From contig JACRKB010000214.1 in assembly GCA_016235545.1 (NCBI GenBank), forward strand, positions 1 through 34,274: a DNA stretch of 34,274 nucleotides, written 5' to 3'. Below are positions 1,047-19,589 of this stretch, piece after piece; positions within the stretch are counted from its first letter, which is position 1, and each line of letters opens with the position of its first letter. Source of the stretch: Verrucomicrobiota bacterium (GTDB lineage Bacteria; Verrucomicrobiota; Verrucomicrobiia; Limisphaerales; SXTU01). The position numbers and the translations under genes are program-made. The notes below the pieces were generated by a model that did no database searches, was not told where the DNA came from, and saw nothing but the letters and a program-made list of their open reading frames with translations.

Positions 1047-2159
1047 GTGCTCCTCGCCCTCGAATCCTCCTGCGACGAGACCAGCGCCGCCGTCATCCAC
1101 GATGGACGCGTGCTGGCCAATGTCGTCGCCTCCCAGATCAAGCTCCATGCCGAATACGGCGGGGTCGTGCCGGAACTCGCGACGCGGGAGCATCTGCGGA
1201 ATCTGATTCCTGTCACACGAGCCGCGTTGGCCAGTGCCGGCGGTTTGCAACCGCCGTCCCAAGCCCAGGGCACGCACGATGGCGACTGCAAGTCGCCGGC
1301 GCCAGCGCTTGACGCCATCGCCGCCACCATCGGTCCCGGCCTGCCGCAGGCATTGATGATTGGCGCACGCGCAGCGCAGGCGATGGCCTTCTCGCTGCGC
1401 AAGCCCTTCTTCGGCATCCACCACCACGAGGCGCACCTCTACTCGCCGTGGATTGCCGTCGCCCCGAACCCAGAACCTGGAACGCAGAACTCGAAACTCC
1501 TCCACGCCGATTTCGCCAGCTTCCAGCCCAACGTCTCCCTCATCGTCAGCGGCGGGCACACGATGCTTGTCTTCGTGGAGGCTGAGCTGAAACACCACCT
1601 TCTGGGCGGCACGGTGGATGACGCGGCAGGTGAGTGTTTCGACAAGGCCGCCAAGCTCATGGGGCTGCCCTATCCCGGCGGCCCGGAGCTGGACGCGCTC
1701 GCCGAACAGGGCGACCCGCGCGCCTTCGACTTCCCACGTCCGATGATCCGGGAGTTGCATGACGACTTCAGCTTCAGCGGGCTGAAGACCTCGGTGCGCT
1801 ACTGCCTCCGCGACCAGCCCTTCATCCTCGACGACCCGGAAAGTGTCCGCGACCTCTGCGCCAGCGTGCGTGCGGCCATCGTGGACGTGCTGGTGACGAA
1901 GACCGTGCGAGCCGCGAAGCGCCTCGGCGTGCAGTGCGTGACCGCGTCCGGCGGCGTGACCTGCAACCGCGCGCTGCGCAAACAACTCACCGAAGCCTGC
2001 GCCAGCAACGGGCTGACGCTCCGGCTCGCCGACAAATCCCTCTGCACAGACAATGCCGCGATGGTGGGAATCCTCGCCGAGCGCAAACTCCAGCGAGGCG
2101 TTGCGCCGAGTTCGGTGGATGAGGAAGTGAAGCCGAGCTGGCCGCTGGTTCCCAAGTAG
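1047..2159 (+). CDS. tsaD: tRNA N6-adenosine threonylcarbamoyltransferase TsaD, with two in-frame repeat insertions
   Basis: TsaD transfers the threonylcarbamoyl group to A37 of ANN-decoding tRNAs, in complex with TsaB and TsaE. The 370-residue product starts at GTG 1047, giving the canonical LALESSCDETSAAV N-terminus. KLHAEYGGVVPELA follows, then the metal-site HHHEAH box (H126 and H130), VSGGHTMLV, DDAAGECFDKAAKLMGLPYPGGP, FSFSGLKT, SGGVTCNRALR and CTDNAAM. Family members are about 335-340 residues. The excess lies in two places: about residues 66-86 (GLQPPSQAQGTHDGDCKSPA) and 137-152 (VAPNPEPGTQNSKL). Both are translations of palindromic repeats found elsewhere in this window. All catalytic motifs are intact, so the protein is probably functional. 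No clear Shine-Dalgarno precedes the GTG. The gene converges on the PQQ-protein gene. Confidence 0.95.
   Translation: MLLALESSCDETSAAVIHDGRVLANVVASQIKLHAEYGGVVPELATREHLRNLIPVTRAALASAGGLQPPSQAQGTHDGDCKSPAPALDAIAATIGPGLPQALMIGARAAQAMAFSLRKPFFGIHHHEAHLYSPWIAVAPNPEPGTQNSKLLHADFASFQPNVSLIVSGGHTMLVFVEAELKHHLLGGTVDDAAGECFDKAAKLMGLPYPGGPELDALAEQGDPRAFDFPRPMIRELHDDFSFSGLKTSVRYCLRDQPFILDDPESVRDLCASVRAAIVDVLVTKTVRAAKRLGVQCVTASGGVTCNRALRKQLTEACASNGLTLRLADKSLCTDNAAMVGILAERKLQRGVAPSSVDEEVKPSWPLVPK
1236..1303 (+). repeat. Palindromic repeat inserted in frame in tsaD (two hairpins)
   Basis: There are two adjacent perfect hairpins: 1238-1256 (8-bp stem, TGC loop) and 1281-1297 (7-bp stem, GCA loop). They are separated by about 24 bases. 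The second hairpin, GGCGACTGCAAGTCGCC, is identical to the one at 16318-16334. The first matches the hairpin near 16246-16266 except for paired stem changes. In frame it encodes the extra TsaD residues ending DGDCKSPAPA. Exact ends are uncertain. Confidence 0.85.
1466..1500 (+). repeat. Second repeat-derived insertion in tsaD
   Basis: This stretch is rich in the CAGAAC/GAACCC and AACTCGAAACTC words and is translated as NPEPGTQNSKLL. It resembles the tail of the element between mreC and mreD (22548-22580), where CGGAACTCAAAACTCAAAAC occurs. It lies between the HHHEAHLYSPW and VSLIVSGGH motifs, exactly where TsaD is about 17 residues longer than usual. Confidence 0.6.
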
Positions 2160-10885: not shown

Positions 10886-10970
10886 CTGTAGCGGCGCTCT
10901 GTGAGCGCCGTGCTGCGGCTACCCATCGGCTGTGGATGTCCCACTCGGCGGTCACAGACCGCCGCTACAG
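10886..10970. repeat. Inverted repeat of two hairpins, CTGTAGCGGCG family
   Basis: The arms 10886-10910 and 10946-10970 are inverted copies agreeing at 23 of 25 positions. The two differences are a matched pair: one arm has GCTCTGTGAGC, the other GGTCTGTGACC when read in the same direction. Each arm therefore keeps its own hairpin. Confidence 0.82.
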
Positions 10971-12266: not shown

Positions 12267-15200
12267 ATGTATCTGAAGAACCTCACCGTTCTTGGCTTCA
12301 AGTCCTTCGCGGACAAGACATCGCTCAACTTCCAGCCCGGCATCACCGCCGTCGTCGGGCCGAATGGCTGCGGCAAGTCCAACGTGGCCGACGCCATCCG
12401 TTGGGTGCTGGGCGAGCAGTCGGCCCGAGCACTGCGCGGCGGCGAGATGGCCGACGTGATTTTCAACGGCACGGACGGTCGCCGGCCCCTCGGCATGGCG
12501 GAGGTTTCCCTGACCATCGGCGACGTGGACGCCGAGCAGCTCAAGGCGGCGGGCGTGGAGATGGCCTTCAACGAAATCACCATTACGCGCCGCATCTTCC
12601 GCGACGGCGGCTCGGAGTATTACATCAACAAGGTGCCGTGCCGGCTGCGGGACATTCAGCAGTTCTTCATGGGCACGGGGATGGGGAAGACGAGCTACTC
12701 CATCATGGCGCAGGGCCACATCACGCAAATCATCCAGAGCAAGCCCGAGGACCGGCGCATGGTGTTCGAGGAGGCGGCGGGCATCACGAAGTTCAAGGCG
12801 CAAAAGAAGGAGTCGCTCCGCAAACTCGAACACACCGACCAAAACCTTCTCCGTGTGGAAGACCTCATCCGCGAGGTGAAGCGGCAAATCGGCTCGCTCC
12901 AGCGTCAGGCCGGTAAGGCGCGTCGCTACAAGCAGGTCGCGATGGAGTTGCAGCATCTCGACACCCAGCTTGCGCGCCATCAGTTCGACACGTTGCAGGC
13001 CGAGATTTCCCAGCGCACGCACGAGGGCGAGCAGCTTCGCGCGGAGATGGAAGACCTTTCGCAGAGCGTCCTGCGCAGTGAGGACGAGCTTCAGCAACTC
13101 CGCCATCGCCTCTCCGACCTCGACGCGGAAATCAACGCGTCGCGCCAGCAGGGTCTCGAACTCAAGGGCCAGTCCGAGCATCACGAGCATCGCATCCAGT
13201 TCAACGACGAGCGACTCCGCGAGTTGGAGGCGCAGAACACGAAGGCTTTCCGCGACATCAACGAGTCGGAGGAACGCATCGGCTACGCGCGGCAGGAACA
13301 CGTCGCCGTCACGCAGCGGCTCTCCGAGTCGCAGCAGAAGCTCGAAACGTTGCGCGGCGAACTTAGCGCCAAGCAGCAGGCCGTCCAGACGGTCGAGCGC
13401 GAGCTTATCACGCGGCAGGAGGAACTTCGCCGCGCGCAGACGGAGGCCTTCAACTCCTCGCAGCAACTCAGCCGCGTGCGCAACGAAATCAACGCGCTCG
13501 ACTTGCAGAAGCAGGGCAACGTCGTGCGCCTCGAAAAGCTTTCCTCGGAGAAGATTCAGTTGGAGGAAGAACGCGGACGCCTTGATTCGCGCCTCACGGA
13601 GTTCGCCGCAAACGTCGAGACGGAGAAGCTCAGCGTCGTCGCGCAGCGCGGCACGGTCGAGGAGCGCCAGCAGCGGCTCCGCGACATTCAGGGGGAAATC
13701 AATTCCGTCAGCCACGAACTCGACACCATTCTCCGCGCGCAAGCAGGCGTGAAGTCGCGCCTCAACGTGCTCGAACAGTTGCAGGGCAGCCACGAGGGTT
13801 TTAGCGCAGGCGCGCAGGCCGCGCTCAAGCAGTCCAAGCTCGCGCTCGGCACGCTCGCCGACCGCATCCGCGTGCCGGACCAGTATGTCGTCGCTGTCGA
13901 GACCGCGCTTGGCCACCACCTCCAGCTCGTCTTGACGGAGCAGCCCGAGGCCGCGCAGCAAATCTTCGCGGACTTGAGCGCGAACAAGAAGGGCCGCGCG
14001 AACATCGGCTGCCTCGGCTTGAAGAATCCCGACTTCAAGCCCGCCGTTGCGACGGACGACGCGCCCGGCGAGTCGGCCTTGAAGGTCATCGAGGCGGATG
14101 AATCCATCGCCTACCTCATCAACGGACTGCTCGGCAACACCCGCATCGTTGCGGACCTCGCCGCCGCCACCGCCGCGTGGCAGCAGACGAATGGTGCTTA
14201 CAACTTTGCCACGCTCACGGGCGACCTGCTCAATCGGCAGGGCATTTTCACCGGTGGCTACTTGAGCGGCAGCGCGAATGGCAAGGCCCCATCCTCCATC
14301 CTTGGCCGCAAGAACCAGATCACCGGACTCAAGGCCGAGATTGAACAGGCGCAGGCGCAGGCGGACGGCATCAGCCACAAGAAGGGCGCGTTGCAAGCCG
14401 AGCAGACCGCGCTGCAAGCCAGCCTCCAGCAGGCCCAGACTGAATTGCGCACGCAGGAGGTCGCCATCGCCACGCGCGAGGGCGAGTTCAAGGCGCTCAA
14501 GCTCTCGCTCCAAAACCTCCACCTCCGCATTGACACGGTGGTCTACGAAATCCAGTCGCTCGCCGCGCAGGAGCAGGAGGGCAACGCCAAGCGCGAGCGT
14601 CTCGCGACCCAAATCGCGGAACTCGAAACACGCGAGCAGTCCGTGGTGGCACGCGTCGCGGAACTCGGCGCGAACATCGACACGCTCCGCCAGCAGCGCG
14701 ACACGGCTTTGACCGCCCTGAACGACACCAAGGTCGCCACCGCGACGGAAGAACAGCTTGTCCGCTCGTTCGCCGGGCAGAAGGCCCCGCTCGAAGCCCG
14801 CATCCGCGAGCTGGAGCAGTTGATCCAGACGCGCCAGACGGAGATCGGCGCGTTCGCCCAGCGCAAGACGCAGGCCGAGGGCGAGATCGCGGATTCCCGC
14901 CACCAGATTGAGCGGCTCCAGCACGAGCGCGAGCAGGTCGGCCAGCGCGTCACCGAGCTCGGCACGCAGAAGACCGCGCAGGAAGGCGACATCGAGCTGC
15001 GCGAGGAAGGCCTGCGCGAGCGCCGCAAGCAACTCGGCGAGCTTCAAGGCCGGCGCGGGGCGATTGACATCGAGCTGACGCAGAAAACGATGCAGGTGCA
15101 GAACCTCCGCCAGCGCATCCACGAGAAATACCAGGTCAACCTCGACGACGTGCGCAGCGAGTGCATCACCATCACCTACGCCGACGAGGGCGCGCCGAAG

Positions 15201-16028
15201 GTCGAGACCGTTTCACCCGAGGAAATGGCGAACCGCGGCATGGCCACGGATTGGGACAAAGTCGCCGAGCAAGTCGCGGCGCTCCAGACGAAGCTTGACG
15301 ACCTCGGGCCGGTGAACCACGCCTCCATCGAGGAATACGAGGAGGCCGAGACACGCCACGCGTTCCTCACCCAGCAGCACGGCGACCTCGTCGCCGCGAA
15401 GGCGCAGCTCCTCGAAATCATCAACAAGATCAACAACCAGACCAAGGTCATGTTCGCCGAGACCTTCGCCAAGATCCGCGACAACTTCCGCGTGCTCTTC
15501 ACGGAAATCTTCGGCGGCGGCAAGGCCGACCTCGTCCTCGTGGACGAGAACGACCTCTTGGAGTCGGGCGTCGAGATCGTCGCCAAGCCCCCGGGCAAGC
15601 AGCTCCAGAGCATCTCCCTCCTCTCGGGCGGCGAGCAGACCATGACGGCCGTCGCGCTGCTCTTCTCGATCTATCAGGTGAAGCCCTCGCCGTTCTGCGT
15701 GCTCGACGAGCTGGACGCACCGCTCGACGAGTCGAACATCAACCGCTTCATCCGCGTGCTCCAGCGCTTCCTCGTGCACTCGCAGTTCGTCATCATCACG
15801 CACAACAAGCGCACCATCGGCATTGCCGACATCCTCTACGGCGTGACCATGCAGGAGCACGGCGTGAGCAAGATCGTGAGCGTCAAGTTCCACAAACAAG
15901 ACGAACCCGCCGCCGACCGCACGTCTGCAACGCCGCTGGTCCCGCCCGCCGCCGTGCCCGCCGTGGAAGCCGAGGAGGACGCGCCGCACAAGCGCGAGGA
16001 GACCCTGGAAATCGTGATGGCGAAGTAG
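12267..16028 (+). CDS. smc: Chromosome segregation ATPase SMC
   Basis: This 1253-residue SMC condensin subunit organises and segregates the chromosome as a dimer with ScpA and ScpB (neither in this window). The N-terminal head has FKSFADKTSLNFQPGITAVVG and the Walker A motif GPNGCGKSN (31-39). Long coiled coils flank a hinge at about 520-670 (DRIRVPDQYVVAVETALGHH to LNRQGIFTGGYLSG). The C-terminal head has the ABC signature LSGGEQ (from about 1119) and Walker B FCVLDELDAPLDE (Asp near 1147). It is somewhat longer than the usual ~1180 residues, partly because of a Pro/Ala/Glu-rich tail after the head (about 1215-1253). The start ATG has no Shine-Dalgarno. A very long antisense frame across it is a codon-bias shadow. 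Confidence 0.97.
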   Translation: MYLKNLTVLGFKSFADKTSLNFQPGITAVVGPNGCGKSNVADAIRWVLGEQSARALRGGEMADVIFNGTDGRRPLGMAEVSLTIGDVDAEQLKAAGVEMAFNEITITRRIFRDGGSEYYINKVPCRLRDIQQFFMGTGMGKTSYSIMAQGHITQIIQSKPEDRRMVFEEAAGITKFKAQKKESLRKLEHTDQNLLRVEDLIREVKRQIGSLQRQAGKARRYKQVAMELQHLDTQLARHQFDTLQAEISQRTHEGEQLRAEMEDLSQSVLRSEDELQQLRHRLSDLDAEINASRQQGLELKGQSEHHEHRIQFNDERLRELEAQNTKAFRDINESEERIGYARQEHVAVTQRLSESQQKLETLRGELSAKQQAVQTVERELITRQEELRRAQTEAFNSSQQLSRVRNEINALDLQKQGNVVRLEKLSSEKIQLEEERGRLDSRLTEFAANVETEKLSVVAQRGTVEERQQRLRDIQGEINSVSHELDTILRAQAGVKSRLNVLEQLQGSHEGFSAGAQAALKQSKLALGTLADRIRVPDQYVVAVETALGHHLQLVLTEQPEAAQQIFADLSANKKGRANIGCLGLKNPDFKPAVATDDAPGESALKVIEADESIAYLINGLLGNTRIVADLAAATAAWQQTNGAYNFATLTGDLLNRQGIFTGGYLSGSANGKAPSSILGRKNQITGLKAEIEQAQAQADGISHKKGALQAEQTALQASLQQAQTELRTQEVAIATREGEFKALKLSLQNLHLRIDTVVYEIQSLAAQEQEGNAKRERLATQIAELETREQSVVARVAELGANIDTLRQQRDTALTALNDTKVATATEEQLVRSFAGQKAPLEARIRELEQLIQTRQTEIGAFAQRKTQAEGEIADSRHQIERLQHEREQVGQRVTELGTQKTAQEGDIELREEGLRERRKQLGELQGRRGAIDIELTQKTMQVQNLRQRIHEKYQVNLDDVRSECITITYADEGAPKVETVSPEEMANRGMATDWDKVAEQVAALQTKLDDLGPVNHASIEEYEEAETRHAFLTQQHGDLVAAKAQLLEIINKINNQTKVMFAETFAKIRDNFRVLFTEIFGGGKADLVLVDENDLLESGVEIVAKPPGKQLQSISLLSGGEQTMTAVALLFSIYQVKPSPFCVLDELDAPLDESNINRFIRVLQRFLVHSQFVIITHNKRTIGIADILYGVTMQEHGVSKIVSVKFHKQDEPAADRTSATPLVPPAAVPAVEAEEDAPHKREETLEIVMAK

Positions 16029-16037
16029 CGCGTTCCA

Positions 16038-16061
16038 GCGGCTGCAAGTCCCCGGCGCGGG
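16038..16061 (+). repeat. Degenerate copy of the GCGACTGCAAGTCGC repeat after smc
   Basis: Ten bases after the smc stop, 24 bases match the right arm of the 16236-16347 element at 21 positions. The palindrome is broken here, suggesting a decayed remnant. Confidence 0.6.
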
Positions 16062-16085
16062 TTCCCAACCTGTTCGTAATCTTCT

Positions 16086-16133
16086 TCCAAATCCTGCTCA
16101 TCCCCCCGTTCCTGCCGGAGCGCAGGATTTGGA
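16086..16133. terminator. Inverted repeat between convergent smc and RNase E/G genes
   Basis: TCCAAATCCTGC (16086-16097) pairs perfectly with GCAGGATTTGGA (16122-16133) across a 24-base loop. It is placed between convergent stop codons (16028 and 16360), so a bidirectional terminator is possible. It lacks a T-run and could be one more repeat element. Confidence 0.4.
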
Positions 16134-16235
16134 TTACAAGCAGGAAGAGGTCTCCCCTGCTTGCGCTGAGGCGCGTTCCCTCCGCTGAGTCACGCAGAGA
16201 ATCCCACGTTCCTCCAAGAGTCGGGACTTCTGCCA

Positions 16236-16347
16236 ATGCACCCGTGCCGGCGACTTGCAGTCGCCGCCTTGCGCATGAGCGGCATGGGCACCCAACGAAT
16301 TGCTGCAACCCATGCACGGCGACTGCAAGTCGCCGGCACGGGTGCAT
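16236..16347. repeat. 112-base palindromic element with 31-bp perfect arms
   Basis: Arms 16236-16266 and 16317-16347 are perfect inverted copies. Each arm itself contains the hairpin GGCGACTTGCAGTCGCC or its reverse complement. The central ~50 bases hold a further inverted pair GCATGGG/CCCATGC. It fills the gap between the convergent smc and RNase genes, and ends 12 bases before the RNase stop codon. Relatives are inside tsaD (1236-1303) and at 16038-16061. Confidence 0.92.
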
Positions 16348-16359
16348 AAGGGTGCCGCA

Positions 16360-18366
16360 TCAGGCCGCGCTTGTGGCCAGCTCCTCGTTGGTGACGGCGT
16401 TGAGGATTTTGAACTGCTCGGCGTGGAATGCTGGGTCGGCGCGGAAGGTGAGCTTGCCGAAGAACTTCTTCTCCATCTCGATCAGGATTTGCTCGTCCTC
16501 CTTGCGCAAGCGGTCGAGCACGGCGGGGTGGGAGACGACGCGCAGCTGGAAGTCGCTCTCGTCGCGCGGCCGTTTCTTGAGGATTTCCTGGAGCTTGCGC
16601 TGGATTTCCACGCTCATGGTCAGGGCGCTCTTCACCTTGGCGCGGCCTTTGCAGTAGGGGCAGTCCTCATAGACGGTGGCGCGGATGCTTTCGGTGTGGC
16701 GCTGGCGTGTCATCTCCATGAGGCCGAGCTGGGAGATGGGCAGGATGTGGGTCTTGGCCTTGTCGCGCCGGAGGCCGTCCTTGACGCGCTGATAGACGCT
16801 TTGCTGGTCGCGGCGGTGCCTCATGTCGATGAAGTCGAGGACGATGAGGCCGCCCAGGTTGCGCAGGCGCAGGAGGCGTGCGATTTCCTCGGCAGCCTCG
16901 AGGTTGACCTTGGTGATGGTTTGCTCCTTGTCCTTGTCCTGTTCCTTGCTCTTGTGGCTGCCGGTGTTGACGTCAATGGCCACGAGGGCCTCTGTTTCGT
17001 CCACGACGAGGTAGCCGCCGCTCTTGAGATGGACTTGGCGGGAGAAGGTGGCTTCGAGCTGCCGGCTGATGCCGAAGCGGTCGAAGACGGGCTGCGGCTC
17101 GTTGTAGAGCTTCACCTTGCTGATGGAGCGCTTGGATATCTTGCCGATCATTTCCTGCATCCGCTCGAACTGCTTGCTGTCGTCAATGACGATGCGCTCG
17201 ACATCCTCGGTGAGGAAGTCGCGCACGGTGCGCTCGATGAGGTCAGGCTCCTGGAAGACGCAGGTGGCTGGGCCCTGCTTGGTGATGCGCTCCTGCACGG
17301 CCTTCCACTCTTCGAGCAGGAAGGCGAGGTCCCGGATGAAGTAACGTTCCTGCTGGCCCTCGCCGGCGGTGCGGATGATGACGCCCATGCCGTCGGGGAT
17401 GTTGAGCTTGCGGACGATTTTTTTCAGGCGCTGGCGTTCCTCGCCCTGTTCGATCTTGCGGGAGATGCCGGACTGGTCGGAGTTGGGCAGGAGCACGAGG
17501 TAGCGGCCCGGGAGCGCGAGGTGGGTGGTGACGCGGGGGCCCTTGGTGCCGATGGGGCCTTTGGTGACCTGGATGATGATCTCGCTGCCCTTGGGGTAGA
17601 GCTTGGGGATGTCCTTCTGGGTTACTTTGGGCTTCTCCGGGAGCTTCTCATGGGGCTTGTCCTTGGGCGGGGACTTCTTCTCGCGTTCGACGATTTCGAC
17701 GCCGCTGTCGAGGTTGCTCGGCACGATGTCCCAGTAGTGGAGGAATGCGTTCTTCTCGAAGCCGATGTCCACGAAGGCAGCCTTCAAGCCGTCCTCGAGG
17801 TTGCGGATCTTGCCCTTGTAGATGCTTCCGACGAGGCGCTCCTCGGTGGTGCGTTCGATTGTGAACTCCTCGAGTCGTCCGTCCTCGCTGACGGCCACCC
17901 GGGTTTCGAGAGACTCGGAGTTGATGATGACCTCCTTGTGCACCTTCTTCTCCGGCTTCATCAGCTTCTTGACCTTGGTGACGACTTTTTGAGCGGCGTG
18001 CTTGAGGGTCGCCATGAGGCCCTTCGGACGGTCCTTGACCTCGACGGGCTTGAAGTCGGCTTCCTCGGCGTTGACCTCCTCGGGGGTCTCGAGATTCGGC
18101 TCGCGGTAGTCGTGGCGGCCTGCGGGCTTGGATGAGGCTTGCGATTCGCCCTCGGCTGGGAGGCCGGCGGCGATGTTTTCGGAGCGGCGGATTTCGTGCT
18201 CGTGGCGGCTGCGGGCGAAGACGGATTCCTCGACGTTGATTCTGATGCCGCCGGTGGCGGCCGCGCGCGCCTCGTGGGCGGCGCGGTCGGGCTTGGCGTT
18301 GGGGTTAAGGCCGCCTGTGGGGCGGAAGCGGCGGGTGCCGCCGCGGTTGGAGAAACGGTTGCTCAT
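16360..18366 (-). CDS. Ribonuclease E/G family endoribonuclease with long basic N-terminal extension
   Basis: This 668-residue single-strand-specific endoribonuclease would act in rRNA maturation and mRNA decay. After ~145 charged, low-complexity residues comes an S1 RNA-binding domain (about 175-285, GSIYKGKIRNLEDGLKAAFVDIG) interrupted by a Lys/Pro-rich stretch at 228-258. The catalytic core follows, with metal-binding aspartates in LVAIDVNTG (D465) and IVLDFIDM (D511). The zinc-link motif CPYC is at 569-572. Start ATG 18366 lies two bases after the rodA stop, so translation is probably coupled. The upstream in-frame extension overlaps rodA and is unlikely. E. coli RNase G is about 490 residues. 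The gene closes the mre-mrd cluster, a location also seen for rng in other bacteria. Confidence 0.93.
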   Translation of the reverse strand: MSNRFSNRGGTRRFRPTGGLNPNAKPDRAAHEARAAATGGIRINVEESVFARSRHEHEIRRSENIAAGLPAEGESQASSKPAGRHDYREPNLETPEEVNAEEADFKPVEVKDRPKGLMATLKHAAQKVVTKVKKLMKPEKKVHKEVIINSESLETRVAVSEDGRLEEFTIERTTEERLVGSIYKGKIRNLEDGLKAAFVDIGFEKNAFLHYWDIVPSNLDSGVEIVEREKKSPPKDKPHEKLPEKPKVTQKDIPKLYPKGSEIIIQVTKGPIGTKGPRVTTHLALPGRYLVLLPNSDQSGISRKIEQGEERQRLKKIVRKLNIPDGMGVIIRTAGEGQQERYFIRDLAFLLEEWKAVQERITKQGPATCVFQEPDLIERTVRDFLTEDVERIVIDDSKQFERMQEMIGKISKRSISKVKLYNEPQPVFDRFGISRQLEATFSRQVHLKSGGYLVVDETEALVAIDVNTGSHKSKEQDKDKEQTITKVNLEAAEEIARLLRLRNLGGLIVLDFIDMRHRRDQQSVYQRVKDGLRRDKAKTHILPISQLGLMEMTRQRHTESIRATVYEDCPYCKGRAKVKSALTMSVEIQRKLQEILKKRPRDESDFQLRVVSHPAVLDRLRKEDEQILIEMEKKFFGKLTFRADPAFHAEQFKILNAVTNEELATSAA

Positions 18367-18368
18367 GA

Positions 18369-19589
18369 TTAGTAGGACCTGCGATGCAGGTAGATGTTTT
18401 GGAGAAGGCCCGCAGCGACCAGGGTGCAAATCACTGAAGTCCCGCCGTATGATAACAGCGGCAGTGGCACGCCCGTCACGGGCATCAAACGGATGTTCAT
18501 GCCGATATTGATGAACACATGGCTGAACAGGAGCGCTACCACTCCCGCCGCCATCACTTTGCCCAGGCGGTCGCGCGCCTGGCCGGCGATTCTGATTCCG
18601 GCGAACAGAACCACCGCATAGAGCGAGAGCACAACCATGCTCCCGACGAATCCGCTCTCCTCGGCAAGCACCGAGAAAATGAAGTCGTTGTGTGCCACGG
18701 CGCGCGGCAGGTAGCCCAACACGTTCTGGGTTCCTTGCCGCCAGCCCTTGCCCGTCAGCCCACCGGAGCCGACGGAGATGAGCGCCTGCTCGACGTTGTA
18801 AGAGTCGTTGCGCTCCTGGATGCGGGCTTTCTGAAGCTCCGCCGCCGTGGCGTTGGGCGGAGCGAAATACTTGTGGTCGAGACCGAAATAGACCAGCAGC
18901 CGGCGGCGCTGGTAATCCTCCAGCTTGAACTGCCAGTTGGGAGGCGCGAACAGCACGTCCACGAGTATCAGCGCCACGATGAGCGCCGAGCCGCTGAGGA
19001 AGCGCCGCAGATACCTCGCCGGAATGCCGGCGACATACATCATCACAAAGCCGGTGGGGATGAGCACCAGCGCGGAGCCGAGGTCCGGCTCGATGAAGAT
19101 GAGCAGGAAGGGCAGGCCAAGTATGGCCAGGGATTTCCAGAAATTGCCCGTGAGCTTCAGCTCGTCGAGCGGCCGGGCGAGGAAGTTTCCGAGCGCGAGG
19201 ATGAAGGCGATTTTCGCAATCTCCGAGGGCTGAAGCTGGAAGATGCCCAGGTCAATCCACCTCCGCGCGCCAAACTTCATCGCGCCGATGTGTGGGATGA
19301 GCACGAGCAGAAGCAGGAGGATGCTGGCCCAGTAAAAGACGTAGGACCAGCGGGCGAGGGTTTGGTAAGGGATGATGCACGTCACCGCCATGGCCCCGAA
19401 CCCCGCAATGTAGAGGCAGATTTGTTTGAAGTGAAGCTGCTTGAACCACGGCACGCCCGCGCCCGACTCGGTCGCGTAGCGCGCGCTGTGAATGAAGAGC
19501 GCGCCCAGCACCATCAGCCCCAGCAAGGCGCACAGCAGCACCCAGTCAATCCGGGCGGGCTTTTCGGCGATGTTGGGGCGGGCGAGCAT
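18369..19589 (-). CDS. rodA: Rod-shape peptidoglycan glycosyltransferase RodA (SEDS family)
   Basis: This 406-residue inner-membrane protein has about ten hydrophobic segments. SEDS polymerases make glycan strands from lipid II and work with a class B penicillin-binding protein. Recognisable motifs are IDLGIFQLQPSEIAKIAFILALGNFLAR, FIEPDLGSALVLIPTGFVMM, ISVGSGGLTGKGWRQGTQ, HNDFIFSVLAEESGFVG, and GMNIRLMPVTGVPLPLLSYGGTS near the C-terminus. RodA rather than FtsW is supported by its place directly after mrdA in the mreBCD cluster. The gap to mrdA is 205 bases and contains repeats; the gap to the RNase gene is only two bases. Confidence 0.95.
   Translation of the reverse strand: MLARPNIAEKPARIDWVLLCALLGLMVLGALFIHSARYATESGAGVPWFKQLHFKQICLYIAGFGAMAVTCIIPYQTLARWSYVFYWASILLLLLVLIPHIGAMKFGARRWIDLGIFQLQPSEIAKIAFILALGNFLARPLDELKLTGNFWKSLAILGLPFLLIFIEPDLGSALVLIPTGFVMMYVAGIPARYLRRFLSGSALIVALILVDVLFAPPNWQFKLEDYQRRRLLVYFGLDHKYFAPPNATAAELQKARIQERNDSYNVEQALISVGSGGLTGKGWRQGTQNVLGYLPRAVAHNDFIFSVLAEESGFVGSMVVLSLYAVVLFAGIRIAGQARDRLGKVMAAGVVALLFSHVFINIGMNIRLMPVTGVPLPLLSYGGTSVICTLVAAGLLQNIYLHRRSY

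Follow-up and report, generated by a model that had tools for sequence, protein, structure and literature searches.

A genus-restricted family of GTGC-tagged hairpin doublets in Limisphaerales: probable REPINs with no RAYT gene found beside them in draft genomes

Among the closest described systems are the REPINs of Pseudomonas fluorescens SBW25 (Bertels and Rainey 2011, PMC3116915), non-coding and mostly intergenic elements in which a spacer of set length, less conserved than the rest, separates two REP units that face each other, and whose single units have been explained as decayed doublets. These features are shared by the GTGC-tagged family described here, the doublets of which measure about 70 and 96 bp, compared with inter-REP spacings of 71 bp (GI) and 110 bp (GII) in SBW25 (PMC3116915). 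GTAG-REP families, described by Di Nocera and colleagues (2013, PMC3733652), include those of the verrucomicrobium Opitutus terrae. GTAG-REPs resemble the GTGC family in combining a tetranucleotide with a 6-13 bp stem and a short loop, in forming head-to-head dimers, in having alternative complementary stem bases and intragenic copies, and in occurring in Verrucomicrobiota; the tag GTGC was not found in the text of that article. CGTC-REPs, from the same article, are likewise mostly head-to-head dimers with no dedicated transposase, but differ from the GTGC family in the tag, the stem (A/T first pairs), a loop of 4-5 bp and a CCA tail. Finally, REPtrons, the TnpA-REP loci (PMC8266576), have a tag-plus-hairpin layout in common with the RAYT loci of the genus studied here and with the GTGC family, and REPSm, which is perfectly palindromic and has a 3-nt loop, is similar to the GTGC unit (PMC8266576).

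The element at issue is located at positions 16236-16347 (unstranded) of the window, by which we mean the whole stretch of 34,274 nucleotides of DNA from a Verrucomicrobiota bacterium that was analysed. Two convergent genes surround it, smc (12267-16028, plus strand, TIGR02168) and a gene for a Rne/Rng-family ribonuclease (16360-18429, minus strand, assigned by TIGR00757 and its open reading frame). A first-pass annotation had described perfect 31-bp inverted arms in this gap, each with a hairpin of its own, and these were confirmed: each arm (16236-16266 and 16317-16347) measures 31 nt, and the two are 100% complementary and 50 nt apart. The accompanying description as a 112-base palindrome holds for the arms but not for the centre, as the structure is interrupted by an asymmetric 50-nt spacer (16267-16316, plus strand). 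Both arms contain the 23-nt unit GTGC-CGGCGACT-TGC-AGTCGCCG. The left unit (16244-16266, plus strand) consists of the tag at 16244-16247 and the hairpin at 16248-16266, and the right unit (16317-16339, minus strand) has the same sequence. The outer 8 nt, ATGCACCC (16236-16243, plus strand) and its complement GGGTGCAT (16340-16347, minus strand), lengthen the match from this unit to 31 nt; at the position of this outer end, other long copies show a weak consensus TGAACCC. Folded as single-stranded DNA, the window copy yielded -59.2 kcal/mol and a set of 200 dinucleotide shuffles -27.2 +/- 2.6 kcal/mol (z = -12.3); no shuffle was as stable. Rfam gave no match within the window. The decayed half copy noted earlier is real as well, a single unit on the minus strand at 16036-16058 with 3 mismatches, 8 bp past the smc stop codon. 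An imperfect inverted repeat (73%) at 16068-16151, between smc and the palindrome, resembles a dispersed family of the same genome, CTCCTGCTCGTAATCCTgaTCC.

The unit is composed of an unpaired conserved tag, GTGC, followed by the hairpin CGGCGRCT-TGC-AGYCGCCG, and may also be written GTGC-CGGCGACTTGCAGTCGCCG. It is by no means confined to the smc gap, since the window's own genome (5.0 Mb in 311 contigs) contains 102 units at up to 1 mismatch, compared with 0 for a reversed control pattern, and each of 10 other genomes of the genus contains between 1 and 133. When repeated 15-mers were counted in 0.98 Mb of the own genome, a sample picked partly for hits, the commonest one likewise derived from the unit. 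Of 11 genomes from one Limisphaerales genus, 8 contain the strict doublet pattern, whereas the 282 further genomes searched in the order gave 0; the search set at family level consisted of the same genomes as that of the genus. An exact-unit scan of GTDB genomes returned, among the matches listed, almost exclusively metagenome-assembled genomes that seem to belong to the genus; several of these are labelled Limisphaerales or Pedosphaera, and some titles are implausible. Adjacent units are convergent in 38 of 42 pairs (these 38 include 5 single units that are self-palindromic and so were read on both strands), spaced mainly by 43-50 or 69-73 bp, and the doublets fall into two length classes of 66-73 bp and about 92-97 bp. 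The spacer of the long class is asymmetric, with a consensus like CGTTGCGGGTGG...CTGCTGTNGCCCACGGA, so that the long copies descend from one sequence; the short class may represent an internal deletion of the long one. A 23-bp period in the spacer lengths was considered and dropped, as the long class has a conserved spacer of its own. Compared with a consensus built from 23 other 50-nt spacers in the genus, the spacer of the window copy is identical at 27 of 50 positions, a value reached by 0 of 20000 shuffles; judged by this spacer, the window copy appears to be an old or loosely kept member of the long class.

Of 165 hairpins retrieved without use of the tag, 159 have GTGC on one side. At the variable position of the stem, 108 arms have A..T and 31 have G..C, versus 9 with G..T and 3 with A..C, while the two arms of one doublet are frequently unlike at this base; this covariation within units whose doublet arms differ shows the unit's own small hairpin to be the conserved structure. 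Among the 76 doublets examined, the arm match is perfect over 31 nt in the window copy only and spans the 23-nt unit in 27. An outer palindrome TGAACC...GGTTCA was considered as a common target, and the test on the 76 doublets revealed no general inverted flanks. The same doublets showed no sign of the target duplication that had been suggested as a check, as 1 of 76 has flanking direct repeats that reach 5 bp or more, compared with 1.95 expected. This also bears on a possible origin as a MITE from a classical DDE insertion sequence, which the inverted ends and the lack of a gene would favour; given the missing duplication, the conserved hairpin of the unit itself, and that no parent insertion sequence with such ends was seen, we consider this origin extremely improbable.

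By contrast, the family agrees well with REPs and REPINs, and the REP/BIME-like architecture proposed in the first-pass annotation is borne out by tag-plus-hairpin units in head-to-head doublets. As in REPs, a stem-loop of 20-50 nt follows a conserved unpaired tetranucleotide, here GTGC instead of GTAG, and the units occur in high copy number and mainly outside genes; as in REPINs, inverted doublets are over-represented and have spacers of set length and variable sequence. The tag places the family outside the GTAG-REP superfamily (GTAG, or GYRG/GTMG/GTGG), and the tag together with the 3-nt loop outside the CGTC-REP superfamily, which has a CGTC tag, an 8-9 bp stem, a 4-5 nt loop and a CCA tail. 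By anatomy, the element is a REPIN as defined by Bertels and Rainey (PMC3116915), with neither a GTAG tag nor, in the draft genomes searched, an adjacent RAYT gene; such adjacency is also missing from the CGTC families (PMC3733652). Altogether, we regard it as very likely that the GTGC element is mobile, non-autonomous and non-coding, a REP doublet built from two REP-like units that face each other, with RAYT-type movement as the proposed route.

Placement of the elements relative to genes, based on a simple codon-usage gene caller, showed 15 of 64 to be intragenic compared with 78% of random positions; the 49 intergenic elements reside in 30 tandem, 11 convergent and 8 divergent gaps. Intragenic lengths in multiples of 3 contrasted too little with intergenic lengths to allow a claim. 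The intergenic enrichment, the mild excess in convergent gaps (11 of 49) and the strong hairpin in the convergent gap of the window might be taken to indicate a bidirectional transcription terminator or a stabiliser of mRNA 3' ends between convergent genes. However, the window copy shows no terminator-like GC hairpin with a T-run, most copies lie in tandem gaps and others in divergent gaps or within genes, the spacers form two length classes, and presence varies across species, all of which renders this function very unlikely. Conservation of the sequence at the rng junction, which according to the first-pass annotation would point to a terminator, was not observed either: the unit is absent near 9 of 9 other Rng loci of the genus, where the rng neighbours, including the genes downstream of rng, are not syntenic. 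The element may still influence the mRNA ends of smc and rng secondarily.

Comparisons between species provide evidence for insertion, persistence and decay. A second full copy, a short-class doublet of 69 bp (1234-1302, unstranded), lies in frame within tsaD of the window (1047-2159, plus strand; TIGR03723 and orthologues) and encodes GGLQPPSQAQGTHDGDCKSPAPA. The corresponding TsaD loop is free of inserts in six relatives (G002, G004, G005, G006, G008 and G009), while G001 and G003 have two unrelated hairpin-family inserts at the same loop, both from families with further copies or close relatives elsewhere; this strongly suggests that such elements do insert. On balance tsaD has gained fewer bases than the element contains, and a few target bases were therefore probably lost. 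In-frame inserts of three unrelated families in one loop illustrate the way in which conserved proteins gain peptides from such elements. All three inserts at this loop, in G000 (the window's own genome; 1234-1302), G001 and G003 (L267 and L270), are palindromic, and G007 and G010 have longer loops without a clear hairpin. A clean difference between species is also present inside a predicted gene, with the doublet at L049 and without it at L174. Three copies in G005 have in common a spacer variant that was seen in no other genome, an indication of multiplication within the G005 lineage. At other orthologous sites (L040/L238, L141/L056 and L083/L213), a doublet in one species corresponds to a single 27-bp palindrome in the other, as would be expected if two self-complementary units recombine. 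These species-level presence/absence patterns and genome-specific copies in draft assemblies are what has been observed with respect to excision or transposition of the doublet as a unit; neither excision nor a transposition intermediate was seen, whereas in SBW25 the excision of doublets was seen by sequencing (PMC3116915).

Some copies persist in place, as indicated by three species (L130, L152 and L184) in which a long doublet comes directly after the stop codon of the same gene. This doublet, which follows '...VVMAK stop', had been considered to mark the end of smc; reading of the sequence identified the gene as polyprenyl-synthetase-like and not smc. In eight orthologous doublets common to species, the arms are about 91% identical, a value inflated because the copies were found by their arms, the flanks 75% and the spacers 55%. 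The better conservation of the arms, allowing for this bias, might reflect a cellular DNA site under selection, such as a protein-binding or chromosome-organising palindrome, with mobility being incidental. Copy numbers between 1 and 133 in species of one genus, insertion into coding sequence and genome-specific spacer subfamilies argue against such a role, which we rate as decidedly improbable. The earlier view that the window copy is probably recent is not supported, given its diverged spacer and the occurrence of other family doublets in more than one species; the copy is probably not recent. The proposal of a non-autonomous mobile element with its enzyme encoded elsewhere fared better, being supported by the dispersed, non-coding, multi-copy nature of the family and its presence or absence between species; the enzyme itself was not found.

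For a REPIN, the expected source of mobility is a RAYT, and members of the Y1/HUH group do occur in the genus. A search with PF01797 detected IS200-like Y1 genes of 150-157 aa in addition to RAYT-like genes. In the four loci examined (L031, L104, L105 and L106), each such Y1 gene lies between inverted hairpin repeats of its own. The similar layout makes it conceivable that the GTGC doublets are MITEs of these genes ('TIRYT' in the terms of Di Nocera et al.), that is, terminal repeats of a Y1 transposase of about 150 aa and not REPs. However, none of these Y1 genes bears the GTGC unit or shares its ends, their repeats differ in sequence, and the conserved tetranucleotide before the stem as well as the head-to-head doublets are better explained by REPs, so that we consider this origin unlikely. 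An alignment-based search for RAYTs identified full-length genes in G001, G003 (two), G005 and G008, remnants or partial matches in G000, G004, G006 and G007 with further partials in G005 and G008, and no match in G002, G009 and G010; both RAYT proteins that were compared match NF047646, one of them above the cut-off. Five RAYT-like loci (L252-L255 and L260) have inverted tag-plus-hairpin repeats on both sides of the gene, one set per gene, such as GTAG-CTCGACATTCCAATGTCGAG, GGAGC-GCGGCRTTCAYGCCGC and others, with GTAG-like or GGAG tags and hairpins other than that of the GTGC unit. Machinery for such a layout thus exists in the genus. In REPtrons and in these loci the RAYT gene lies inside its own hairpin set; in contrast, no such locus was found for the GTGC family in 11 genomes, whereas the SBW25 families are tied to specific RAYT genes (PMC3116915). 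The Y1/HUH transposase flanked by the same hairpin that the first-pass annotation had anticipated was sought in all 11 genomes of the genus, all drafts, and no GTGC unit was detected beside a Y1, RAYT, IS200-like or other transposase gene; two partial-match RAYT loci have a weak, 4-mismatch unit match elsewhere in the fetched stretch. Where facing units lie within 3.5 kb of each other, inspection by eye and self-comparison likewise revealed no evident transposase gene between them. G009 and G010, which are about 80% complete, contain 23 and 53 units and no detectable Y1 or RAYT gene. As all genomes are drafts, a small enzyme locus between repeats may have been lost from them. A gene of about 0.8 kb enclosed by high-copy 95-bp repeats could end up on a contig too short for binning, and in the own genome 8 contig ends are located within about 200 bp of a unit.

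Judging from the layout and by analogy to the other families of the genus, the GTGC family is most likely moved as single-stranded DNA by a RAYT-type HUH enzyme. Each unit would fold when the DNA is single-stranded, e.g. during replication, a Y1/HUH enzyme of the RAYT type would recognise tag and hairpin, and the doublet would be cut and rejoined elsewhere without target duplication; the cognate enzyme might be lost, might be missing from the draft assemblies, or might be a RAYT acting in trans. It might further be speculated, although with rather low probability, that the family is an orphan without a RAYT of its own that still multiplies by cross-mobilisation through other RAYTs or another single-strand enzyme, its hairpins being kept by selection across speciation, and that the tsaD loop displays insertion preferences common to hairpin families. 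As the genus harbors both RAYT loci with their own hairpins and the GTGC family without one, the question of a dedicated RAYT versus mobilisation in trans can be addressed by genome comparison. The family extends the REP/REPIN kind in a phylum with few described families, being restricted to one genus, unusual in its tag and without a detected RAYT of its own.

A RAYT-like match in the window's own genome (L257, G000:C51:14682-15053) lies inside an open frame of 1141 aa and is possibly a remnant or an out-of-frame reading. Further hairpin families accompany the GTGC elements. At 10888-10968 the window contains a doublet of a canonical GTAG-tagged family (GTAGCGGCGCTCTGTGAGCGCCG ... CGGCGGTCACAGACCGCCGCTAC) with TGAACC/GGTTCA flanks; beyond the GTGC copies, TGAACC...GGTTCA was found around a GTAG doublet and two GGAG doublets. 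A second abundant palindromic family, GGAGC-GCGGACGCCCACGTCCGC, forms doublets as well (L035, L038, L039 and others); no intact RAYT was detected in the own genome, and about 32 hits to this family were found in 0.98 Mb of it.
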